A DNA stretch of 64,000 nucleotides, taken from positions 1 to 64,000 of the forward strand of contig JBCDKT010000020.1 of assembly GCA_038746285.1 (NCBI GenBank). Direction: 5' to 3'. Position numbers and translations under genes: made by a program. This DNA comes from Bacteroidota bacterium (GTDB lineage Bacteria > Bacteroidota > Rhodothermia > Rhodothermales > JANQRZ01). Of this stretch, positions 13,311-29,400 are shown piece after piece; the first letter of the stretch is position 1, and each line of letters begins with the position of its first letter. The notes beneath the pieces are model-generated. The model made no database searches and had not been told where the DNA came from. It saw only the letters and a list, made by a program, of their open reading frames with translations.

Positions 13311-13497
13311 AGAGGGCGTTGAGGATTCACCCTGAGGGGCTGCGCGCGGCTACTGGAGGCGTCCGCCGCGTTGCACTCCCTTCGGCTACGCTCAGGGCAG
13401 GCTCTGCCCGATGCGGGGCATCGACCTCCTCGCGCGCCTTGCGGCCCACCTACAGTCCCTCACGCTCGCCGTCCTCCCGTAAATCTCAACGCCCTCT
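13311..13497. mobile_element. 187-bp mini-element with terminal inverted repeats (class B)
   Basis: The element begins AGAGGGCGTTGAGGATT and ends AATCTCAACGCCCTCT, an imperfect inverted repeat. Its interior aligns along nearly its whole length with the copy at 27.6 kb, but has about 23 extra bases around CTTCGGCTACGCTCAGGGC. It encodes nothing recognisable and resembles a non-autonomous (MITE-like) element. No target duplication is obvious. It occupies most of the 306-bp gap between the divergent pepA and S66 peptidase genes; the rest holds the two candidate promoters. Confidence 0.8.
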
Positions 13498-17969: not shown

Positions 17970-17972
17970 CGG

Positions 17973-18063
17973 TTTCTGGTTCTTAGTTTCTAGTTTCTGG
18001 TTCGGCACCGGTGACCAGGTGCGACGAACGAGAAACCAGGAACTCGAAACTAGAAACTGCGAA
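17973..18063. repeat. Heptad palindrome: arms of degenerate 7-bp units (TTTCTAG type)
   Basis: Left units TTTCTGG, TTCTTAG, TTTCTAG and TTTCTGG (17973-18000) are mirrored by CGAGAAA, CCAGGAA, CTCGAAA and CTAGAAA (18029-18056). The central loop has its own small dyad, CACCGGTG. The element begins three bases after the mreB stop and ends a few bases before the mreC start, so it occupies the whole gap. Confidence 0.88.
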
Positions 18064-26624: not shown

Positions 26625-27560
26625 ATGCGCTCGGCGTGGGAGGCGCTGCTGGCCCGGAGTCCACAGGCGTCGGTGTTCTCGCACCTCGCGCTCGGCGAGC
26701 ACGTCGGGCGCGCCTTCGGACTGAGGCCGCGCGTAGCAGGCGCGTGGGAGGGCGACGTGCTCCGCGCGGGCGTCCTGCTCTACGAGAAGCGCCGAGGGCC
26801 GTACTGCGCCGCCGCGATCCCGCCGCTCGTGCCGCGCGTCTCGCCGCTTCTCGACCGCCCGCCGCGTGAGGCCGACACTCACTACCGACGCTCGCCGCTC
26901 CAGGCGCTCCTCGGGTGCGTGGCGGAACGCTTTCACCAGGCGAGCCTCGCCGCGCACCCGTCGCTCGTGGACGCGCGCCCGTTCCAGTGGGGCGGGTGGC
27001 ACGTCACGCCCGCCTACACCTACGCGCGCGACCTCCGGCCCGGCGAAGAGGTCACGGCGGCGTGGTCCTCGACCACCCGGCACGCCTGGCAGAACCACCG
27101 CGAGGCGTTCGAGGTCGCCGAGGGCGTGGACGGCCTGGACGAAGTGCTGGCGCTTGTCGAGGCGTCGCACGAGCGGCAGCAGCAGCCGCTCAGCGTGCCG
27201 TCTGCTGCGATGCGAAGCCTCCTGGCCAGACTGGCCGAGTCCGGGCTCGCGCGCCTCTTCGTCGCCCGGCGCGACGGGGACGCCGAGGCGGGCGTCGCCG
27301 TGCTCTCGGACGGGCGGGCGGCACACTACTGGCTTGCCGGCAGCCGGCCCGGACCGGCCATGACCGTCCTCGTCGCCGCCGTCCTGACCCGGCTCCGGGA
27401 CGAGGGCGTAGCGTATTTTGACTTCGCCGGGGCCAACACGCCCTCGATCGCTGAGTTCAAGCGCAAGTTCGGCTGCCGCCTCGTGCCCTACGTCCGCGCC
27501 CGCCGCGTGTCGCGCCCCGAGCTTCGCCTGCTGGACGCCCTCCGCCGGAGGAGTTTCTAG
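26625..27560 (+). CDS. GNAT/FemAB-like acyltransferase (BioF2-like)
   Basis: The 311-residue protein has the FemAB-like GNAT pattern seen in polysaccharide gene clusters: SPQASVFSHLALGEHVGRAFG near the start, TPAYTYARDLRPGEEVTAAW and TRHAWQNHREAFEV centrally, and YFDFAGANTPSIAEFKRKFG at the end, the FKxxFG motif being characteristic. It may acylate or add an amino acid to a cell-surface sugar. The true start may be upstream of ATG 26625, since in-frame sequence before it looks coding (VLNASSPYRTSLHGLDDEAM), but only CTG or ATT codons are available there. Its TAG stop is part of a heptad repeat. Confidence 0.75.
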   Translation: MRSAWEALLARSPQASVFSHLALGEHVGRAFGLRPRVAGAWEGDVLRAGVLLYEKRRGPYCAAAIPPLVPRVSPLLDRPPREADTHYRRSPLQALLGCVAERFHQASLAAHPSLVDARPFQWGGWHVTPAYTYARDLRPGEEVTAAWSSTTRHAWQNHREAFEVAEGVDGLDEVLALVEASHERQQQPLSVPSAAMRSLLARLAESGLARLFVARRDGDAEAGVAVLSDGRAAHYWLAGSRPGPAMTVLVAAVLTRLRDEGVAYFDFAGANTPSIAEFKRKFGCRLVPYVRARRVSRPELRLLDALRRRSF

Positions 27561-27805
27561 TTCCTCGTTTCTCGCCATGCAGGAGCCGCCGACCGTGCTC
27601 GAAGAGAAACTAGAAGCTGAGAGGGCGTTGAGGATTCACCGCGACGGGCTGCGCGTGGTCGCTGAACCCGTCCGCTGCGTTGCGCTCGTCGCCCGATGCG
27701 GGGGCATCTGGCTTCTCGCGCGCCTTGCGGGCCGTCTCCAGCCCCTCACGCTCGCCGTCCTCTCGAAAATCTCAACGCCCTCTAAAAACTGGAAACCAGA
27801 AACGG
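27554..27805. repeat. Heptad palindrome (TTTCTAG type) interrupted by a class B mini-element
   Basis: Left units TTTCTAG, TTCCTCG and TTTCTCG (27554-27574) face AGAAACT and AGAAGCT, then, after the 164-bp class B element, AAAACTG, GAAACCA and GAAACGG. The right arm is thus split by the insertion. Unit sequence is nearly the same as in the palindrome between mreB and mreC. Confidence 0.75.
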
Positions 27806-29400
27806 CATCGCTGCCGCTCTGGCTTGCCCTGCTTACGCTCGTCGGGGCCTTCCTCCGGTTCGGCTACGTCTACGGCACCGGCGACCAGGACGAGCTGATC
27901 CCATCGGTGCTGCACCTGCTCGACGGGGCGCTGTTCACGCAGGACTGGCTCGTGCAGACGGTCACCTCGGGCGTGAACGTGCGGACGTACTTCCTCTGGC
28001 TGACGGCGCTGCCGAGCCTCGCGCTGCCGGTGTGGCTCACGTCGGCAGTGCTGTGGGGCGGGGTGATGGTCGCGCTCGCGTACGGCGTCTACGGGCTAGC
28101 GTGGGAGGTGACGCGGAGCCGGCTCGGGGCGGCGCTCGCGGTGCCGGTGGCGCTCGCCGTGGCGGTGAAATGGACGCTCGGGGCAAACGCGCTCGTCTCG
28201 AACGCGCACGTCCCGGAGAGCGTGGCGTGGGCGCTCATCGTGCCTGCCGTGACCGTCTTCCTCCAGCGGCGATGGGTGCGCGCCGGGCTGCTGCTCGGGG
28301 TCGCGGCGTGGCTCCACCTCCTCGCGGCGGCGCAGGTCGCGCTCGTCCTCGGCGTGGTCGGGCTGGCGCAGGCCGTGGCGGCGGTCGAACTCGACGGGCG
28401 GCAACTGCGGGCTGATTTTGTAGCCCTGCTCGCCTTCGGCGGCGTCTTCTTGCTCGCGGCGCTGCCGGCGCTGGGGCCGGTCGTGCTGGACCAGCTCACA
28501 CCCTCGGGTGGACTCGCCGAGGCGGCACCGCCATTCTACATCCACGCCCAGTTCCGCAACCCCTTCCACCACCTGTTCTCTTCGTTCGAGGTGGCGCACC
28601 ACCTGCGGTTCTGGCCTCTCGTCGCACTCGGACTGGCGTCGGGGGTAGGGCTGGACCGGCGGGGCGCGCTGCGGCACGGGCGAGCACTGGCAGTCGGTGG
28701 ATCACTTGTCGCAGCGCTCTGCGCCCTCGCCGTGGTGTTCGTGGAAGTCGTCCCGGTGACACTCGTGGCGAAGCTGCAGTTTTTCAAGCTGACGGTGCTC
28801 GTGAACCTCCTGTGCTCAGTCCTGATCGCGGCGGCGCTCGTCCACCTCCTGCCCGCGCCGTTGCGCCGAACCGGGCGGTGGCTGCTGGAGCAGCGCCGAG
28901 CCGGGCTGGCCCTCGCGCTCGGGTTCGCGTTCGTCGTCGGGGTGCTCGCCGTGCAGGGTGTAGGACGGCCGGGGGCCCTGCTCGTCCCGGTGCGCCACCT
29001 CGCCTCGCCGCTCGGCGAGGCCGAGCAGTGGGCGCGGGCCGAGACGCCGCCTGACGCCCTCTTCGCGGTCCCGCCGTCGGTGAGTTCGTTCCGGTCCTTC
29101 GCCCACCGCGCGGTCGTGGCGAACTACGCTGGGTTCGTGTTTGCGGACCGGGACATGCAGGTCTGGTTTCGGCGGCTGATGGACCTCGCCCCGATCTCGC
29201 CGCCGGAGACCGGGATTGGCGTCAAGCCCGTGCTCGACGCGGCCTACGCGCGCCATGAGCCGGAGGCGTGGCGGCGCTTGCAGTCGGGCTACGGTATCGA
29301 CTACATCCTCATGCCGCAGGAGGCGGCGGCGCTGCCGTTCCGGGTCGCGTTCGAGAACGAGGGCTGGTTGGTCTACCGGCTGCCGGAGGCGACCTCGTGA
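27577..29400 (+). CDS. Polytopic membrane protein of a surface-polysaccharide locus
   Basis: From about residue 78 the protein is a multi-pass membrane protein of roughly ten to twelve helices, with FGYVYGTGDQDELIPSVLHL in the first extracytoplasmic loop and a soluble C-terminal region (ISPPETGIGVKPVLDAAYAR). The acidic GDQDE motif after the first helix recalls GT-C type glycosyltransferases and DUF6798-like proteins; no firm family is claimed. The first ~77 residues are encoded by repeat DNA: the end of a heptad palindrome and an entire class B element read through in frame. No ATG, GTG or TTG lies between that repeat and the first helix, so ATG 27577 or a codon inside the repeat must be used. 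Confidence 0.7.
   Translation: MQEPPTVLEEKLEAERALRIHRDGLRVVAEPVRCVALVARCGGIWLLARLAGRLQPLTLAVLSKISTPSKNWKPETASLPLWLALLTLVGAFLRFGYVYGTGDQDELIPSVLHLLDGALFTQDWLVQTVTSGVNVRTYFLWLTALPSLALPVWLTSAVLWGGVMVALAYGVYGLAWEVTRSRLGAALAVPVALAVAVKWTLGANALVSNAHVPESVAWALIVPAVTVFLQRRWVRAGLLLGVAAWLHLLAAAQVALVLGVVGLAQAVAAVELDGRQLRADFVALLAFGGVFLLAALPALGPVVLDQLTPSGGLAEAAPPFYIHAQFRNPFHHLFSSFEVAHHLRFWPLVALGLASGVGLDRRGALRHGRALAVGGSLVAALCALAVVFVEVVPVTLVAKLQFFKLTVLVNLLCSVLIAAALVHLLPAPLRRTGRWLLEQRRAGLALALGFAFVVGVLAVQGVGRPGALLVPVRHLASPLGEAEQWARAETPPDALFAVPPSVSSFRSFAHRAVVANYAGFVFADRDMQVWFRRLMDLAPISPPETGIGVKPVLDAAYARHEPEAWRRLQSGYGIDYILMPQEAAALPFRVAFENEGWLVYRLPEATS
27620..27783. mobile_element. 164-bp mini-element with terminal inverted repeats (class B)
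   Basis: Starts AGAGGGCGTTGAGGATT and ends AATCTCAACGCCCTCT like the copy at 13.3 kb, with shared interior blocks such as CGCGCGCCTTGCGG and CCCTCACGCTCGCCGTCCT. It has inserted into the right arm of a heptad palindrome and is open in the frame of the membrane-protein gene. Confidence 0.82.

Follow-up and report, generated by a model that had tools for sequence, protein, structure and literature searches.

A 162 bp IS5-type mini-element has been inserted in frame into an older heptad array that joins two genes in the window (the whole stretch of 64,000 nucleotides that was analysed), which belongs to an uncultured bacterium of the Rhodothermales type. Our preferred reading, to which we assign a probability of roughly 0.78, is that this is an in-frame MITE fusion that is read through from a start codon in the loop of the array.

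The mini-element and its relatives

The two genes that meet here are both located on the forward strand. The upstream neighbour (open reading frame at 26625..27560) codes for a GNAT acetyltransferase according to its Pfam match (Acetyltransf_6, PF13480). The downstream gene (27577..29397 if its predicted repeat-encoded N-terminus is included) codes for a membrane protein with a DUF6798 domain near the C-terminus (PF20604, E 2.4e-15 in a Pfam profile search) and has matches in 31 of 40 relatives. The junction of both genes consists of the split heptad array and the mini-element. The left arm of the inverted array (27554..27574, TTTCTAG TTCCTCG TTTCTCG, + strand) closes the acetyltransferase reading frame, whose TAG stop codon (27558-27560) lies within the first heptad. 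It is followed by the loop (27575..27602), which holds two candidate start codons upstream of the element, and by the right arm, the first part of which (27603..27620, AGAGAAA CTAGAAG CTGA) precedes the element and the second part of which (27786..27802, AAA CTGGAAA CCAGAAA) follows it. Joined to 27617-27620, the second part reads CTGAAAA CTGGAAA CCAGAAA.

The element itself is located at 27621..27782 (+ strand) and is delimited by its inverted repeat, by comparison with its other copies and by the empty sites in a related genome. Its terminal inverted repeats are 12 bp long and perfect, with GAGGGCGTTGAG at the left end (27621..27632) and its inverted counterpart, CTCAACGCCCTC on the forward strand, at the right end (27771..27782). 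The 13 nt inverted repeat 27620-27632/27771-27783 is 100% complementary as well. A length of 164 bp had been proposed from the sequence alone; the element is 162 bp long, because the outer A and T fall into a target-site duplication of the TNA type. This duplication is imperfect, with TGA on the left (27618..27620) and TAA on the right (27783..27785). Removal of zero to eight right-hand bases together with the element showed that the heptad register (CTGAAAA CTGGAAA CCAGAAA) returns only if three are dropped. A target duplication of 8 bp (AGAAGCTG/AAAAACTG, 6 of 8 positions matching), which also yields the heptad register, was rejected, as the other copies and the empty site of one of them (C33) have a 3 bp TNA duplication.

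Altogether, nine full-length copies of the MITE with lengths from 156 to 212 bp were found in the bacterium's own genome (G000). Class A copies have GAGACTGTTGAG-like ends; in class B, to which the element studied here belongs, the ends are GAGGGCGTTGAG. The two ends of each copy match closely. A search with CKAGAAACKAGA gave ten matches in the genome and none with the reversed control. The 13-mer end has two further exact copies in the window (13311-13323 and 13485-13497); therefore the element is present twice in the window. The second class B copy (13312..13496, + strand) is 185 bp long, 74% identical and flanked by TCA/TTA; compared with the other copies it has an additional CCCTTCGGCTACGCTCAGGGCAGGCTCTGCC-like stretch. 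Exact TNA duplications flank two copies (C81, TTA/TTA; C33, TGA/TGA), and one-base variants are found at most others. No MITE was found in the related genome G001 of the same genus; one full-length relative of about 159 bp is present in a genome of another family (G058).

There is no transposase gene inside the element, which has 53-54 open codons in one frame only. A search for RNA families returned matches to microRNA models alone, far under the gathering score. The bacterium's own genome does encode IS5-family transposases (196.9 bits with NCBIfam NF033580, cut-off 110 bits; also PF01609 and PF13340), and a resident IS5 transposase gene is located at C21:28667-29125. The autonomous IS5 elements of this genome and of G002, a genome one genus further out, have the ends GAGACTGTTTGG/GAAGCTGTTTGG and are flanked by TNA duplications (TCA/TCA at L107 and TTA/TTA at L105 in G002, TCA/TGA at L110 in the own genome). 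The first approximately nine bases of the resident IS5 ends (GAGACTGTT) are common to class A; in the class B ends (GAGGGCGTT), seven of these nine positions agree and two do not. An autonomous IS element with exactly matching ends was not found in the own genome or in the 40 relatives, although the assembly breaks inside IS copies. Judged by its ends and duplications, the 162 bp element resembles an IS5-type MITE, and we have filed it as such. A core of the form CGTTGCGCTCGTC...CGATGC...GCATCG...CTCCTCGCGCGCC recurs in elements with differing outer sequence in several genera (L005, L008, L196, L198, L200).

Heptad arrays, empty sites and the order of events

The arrays consist of CNAGAAA/TTTCTNG heptads, in which the second base is free and the arms are inverted. 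A search for three consecutive heptads that allowed up to three mismatches gave 124 matches in the own genome and none in the reversed control. In G001, 39 matches were found (control: 1), and in G002 the three-heptad arrays are absent. The arrays are also common in some families outside this one; examples are G031, with 580 matches compared to 104 in the control, and G013, with 32 compared to none. In the own genome each arm of an array comprises about four heptads, and the loops in G000 and G001 often hold a CGACCG/CGGTCG core. The sequence-only reading had described a TTTCTAG-type palindrome here. Facing heptad arms are indeed present, but their letter-by-letter pairing at the variable base is not above chance (21 of 68 facing heptads match, 20.3 expected), and a base-paired palindrome was thus rejected.

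Heptad arrays are dispersed (17972-18057 in the window; L029-L038 and L131-L152), often in place of a whole short intergenic spacer. Both window arrays and three further sites (L036, L142, L152) are common to G000 and G001. At three sites with an array in G000 only (L033, L034, L135), a short plain spacer is found in G001. When the arrays at 17972-18057 and 27554-27802 are compared with G001 (C8), the free base differs in many heptads and the C..AAA frame is kept. Another gene (L037, 1434-1508) has its start ATG inside the loop of an array, and translation of the heptad arm gives QRETRNEKLETERE as its predicted N-terminus. Predicted repeat-encoded N-termini are therefore not unique to the locus at 27554-27802. 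A description of the CNAGAAA heptad family did not turn up in the literature searched, and the arrays are less explained than the MITE. A tentative idea, which we consider possible rather than likely, is that they are undescribed small mobile-like elements that are gained and lost from species to species, take the place of whole intergenic spacers and can supply stop codons, start codons and first residues; the MITE would then form the second layer of an all-repeat junction. The window also contains a tandem 9 bp repeat of the GGAGGGCGT type at positions 1-90, seen as repeated matches with two mismatches.

The order of events at the junction can be read from the related genomes. In G001, a Rhodothermales MAG, the counterpart locus (JANQRZ010000018.1) has kept both genes and the heptad array at their junction, and the element is absent. 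The syntenic gap between the flanking BLAST blocks comprises 237 bp in the window and 72 bp in G001, a difference of exactly 165 bp, which corresponds to the element and one copy of the duplication (162 + 3). Alignment to G001 gave a value of 220.5 for the sequence with the element removed, compared to 145 for the filled sequence. Likewise, the site of MITE copy C33 is empty in G001, and removal of 160 + 3 bp leads to an ungapped junction. For the copy at 13311 no clean empty site was found in G001, which has approximately 2.4 kb of other DNA there. G002 has neither the element nor the heptad array at the junction.

Because G001 has the array without the element, the insertion came second, as the sequence-only reading had proposed. 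The comparison with relatives that it called for recovered an empty site in which the heptads are present; its refuting case, an empty site that lacks heptads, was not found in the nearest relative. The outgroup G002 lacks both. The simplest reading of these genomes is that the insertion postdates both the array and the split from G001.

Start codons and predicted read-through of the element

The frame of the membrane protein is open from 27412 to 29397, with the whole composite included, as had been noted before; the sequence also agrees with the earlier observation that ATG, GTG and TTG are all missing downstream of the element (from 27783) until the first predicted helix is reached. One of the six frames of the element is stop-free, namely the frame in use. 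Together with the duplication it comprises 165 bp, which correspond to 55 in-frame residues (RALRIHRDGLRVVAEPVRCVALVARCGGIWLLARLAGRLQPLTLAVLSKISTPSK).

Two candidate starts are located in the loop upstream of the element, both on the + strand. ATG 27577..27579 is in frame with the membrane protein and would give a product of 607 amino acids (MQEPPTVLEEKLEAE...), and it has no Shine-Dalgarno sequence. GTG 27595..27597 is preceded by AGGAG (27581-27585) at a spacing of 9 nt, and in the alignment its equivalent is the sole start in the G001 loop. Neither of the two is a strong start. The most likely start lies upstream of the element at one of these codons, and the gene is predicted to begin with about 70-76 residues read from repeats. 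Since the loop start is followed by 165 bp without a stop, the predicted protein carries a 55-residue insertion ahead of helix 1. Without the element the predicted product begins with MQEPPTVLEEKLEAENWKPETASLPLW; with it, the 55 residues are added after E15. If the GTG is the start in G001, the repeat-encoded N-terminus would be older than the element, because part of the protein upstream of helix 1 would then come from the heptad arm in G001 as well.

We propose the following sequence of events for the in-frame fusion. The heptad array first formed the junction, where its TAG ends the acetyltransferase gene and its loop and right arm would supply the membrane protein with a start region and N-terminal residues. 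A non-autonomous IS5-family MITE, presumably mobilised in trans by an IS5 transposase, then transposed into a TNA target in the right arm. This added 55 codons without a stop in the used frame, and ribosomes that probably start at one of the loop codons would read through the element. The extension might be tolerated because the N-terminal tail is not conserved. Among the relatives, neither the length nor the sequence of the segment preceding helix 1 is constant; those with an upstream ATG start roughly 8-38 residues ahead of the helix, and the outgroup G002 starts, like the candidate at 27577, with ATG CAG, about 38 residues ahead of it and without heptads. The predicted extension is moderately hydrophobic (Kyte-Doolittle maximum of 1.54 over 19 residues) with arginines present, and it may be partly membrane-associated. 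An AlphaFold prediction of the 607 amino acid protein with three sequences had a mean pLDDT of 35 and gave no usable model. Open reading frames across the emptied junctions of the other MITE copies are indistinguishable from chance ORFs in GC-rich DNA.

The element could also lie in the 5′ untranslated region, with translation starting from CTG 27811, where helix 1 begins, and no repeat residues being made. G001 has a TTG at exactly this codon, and the hairpin predicted for the element is strong (−79.2 kcal/mol, z −2.9) and could impede ribosomes. This explanation requires a CTG start, however, and would give an unusually short N-terminus compared with the relatives that use an upstream ATG; in addition, the 162 bp are open in the sole permissive frame. 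Altogether, we regard it as unlikely.

Still less probable is a start inside the element, which would then have donated the start codon. TTG 27628 and GTG 27655 are both in frame, but TTG 27628 is located within the terminal hairpin stem, and the loop starts upstream are older than the element. Of the earlier suggestion that translation begins either in the repeat or in the element, a repeat-encoded start region thus remains likely, and an element-internal start is not needed, as ATG 27577 and GTG 27595 lie upstream. It is very improbable that the composite arose by misassembly or as a chimera. The draft genome consists of 134 contigs and repeats are classic chimera points, but synteny with G001 extends over the two flanks on a single contig, with no rearrangement, and the lengths differ by precisely the element plus its duplication.

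Comparison with known elements

In Porphyromonas gingivalis, the IS5-family element ISPg4 has the end GAGACTGTTGCA, which is common to MITE464/MITEPgRS (PMC4596501). The elements described here are similar to IS5-family MITEs of this kind in their short length, the lack of a transposase, the presence of a resident IS5 with similar ends and class A ends that begin with GAGACTGTTG. They differ in their internal sequence, in matching the resident IS over the first approximately nine bases only and in having class B ends (GAGGGCGTT); in addition, the TNA duplication is resolved here through empty sites.

Heptamer repeats of the sequence TAACTGA have been described in Beggiatoaceae and some Bacteroidetes, where they are intergenic, near start codons and in some cases inside the ends of ORFs (PMC4679880). 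Both families form heptamer arrays near starts and are of unknown function. The TAACTGA arrays repeat a single invariant heptamer in direct orientation, whereas in the arrays found here two inverted arms flank a conserved loop and one base of the heptad is free; the CNAGAAA arrays are thus not tandem direct repeats of one heptamer. Elhai and co-workers reportedly found heptameric STRR repeats in cyanobacteria with small dispersed repeats inserted into them. That would be a similar nesting of a small mobile element in a heptamer array, with other heptads and in other taxa.

Rickettsia palindromic elements (RPE) recur in the ORFs of many genes, according to a review (PMC10969869). As here, a palindromic element of approximately 150 bp is located in frame inside a host gene; in our case the open coding frame was demonstrated for one copy only, and the review's passage on RPE reports no link to IS5. 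QMITEs of Coxiella burnetii likewise add in-frame residues to host proteins, in the case of enhC as a C-terminal extension (PMC5896051), whereas the insertion predicted here is N-terminal and adjoins the start codon. In-frame MITE fusions as such are already known from QMITEs and RPE (PMC5896051; PMC10969869), and the fusion at 27621-27782 is a predicted one.

The locus represents an ordered two-step case, in which an array built the junction and a transposon remnant then added 55 codons to the predicted protein, with the empty sites proving the order. It allows a direct test of N-terminal tails of membrane proteins as free ground for insertions, and it draws attention to a heptad repeat that is widespread in Rhodothermales and apparently has no name yet.
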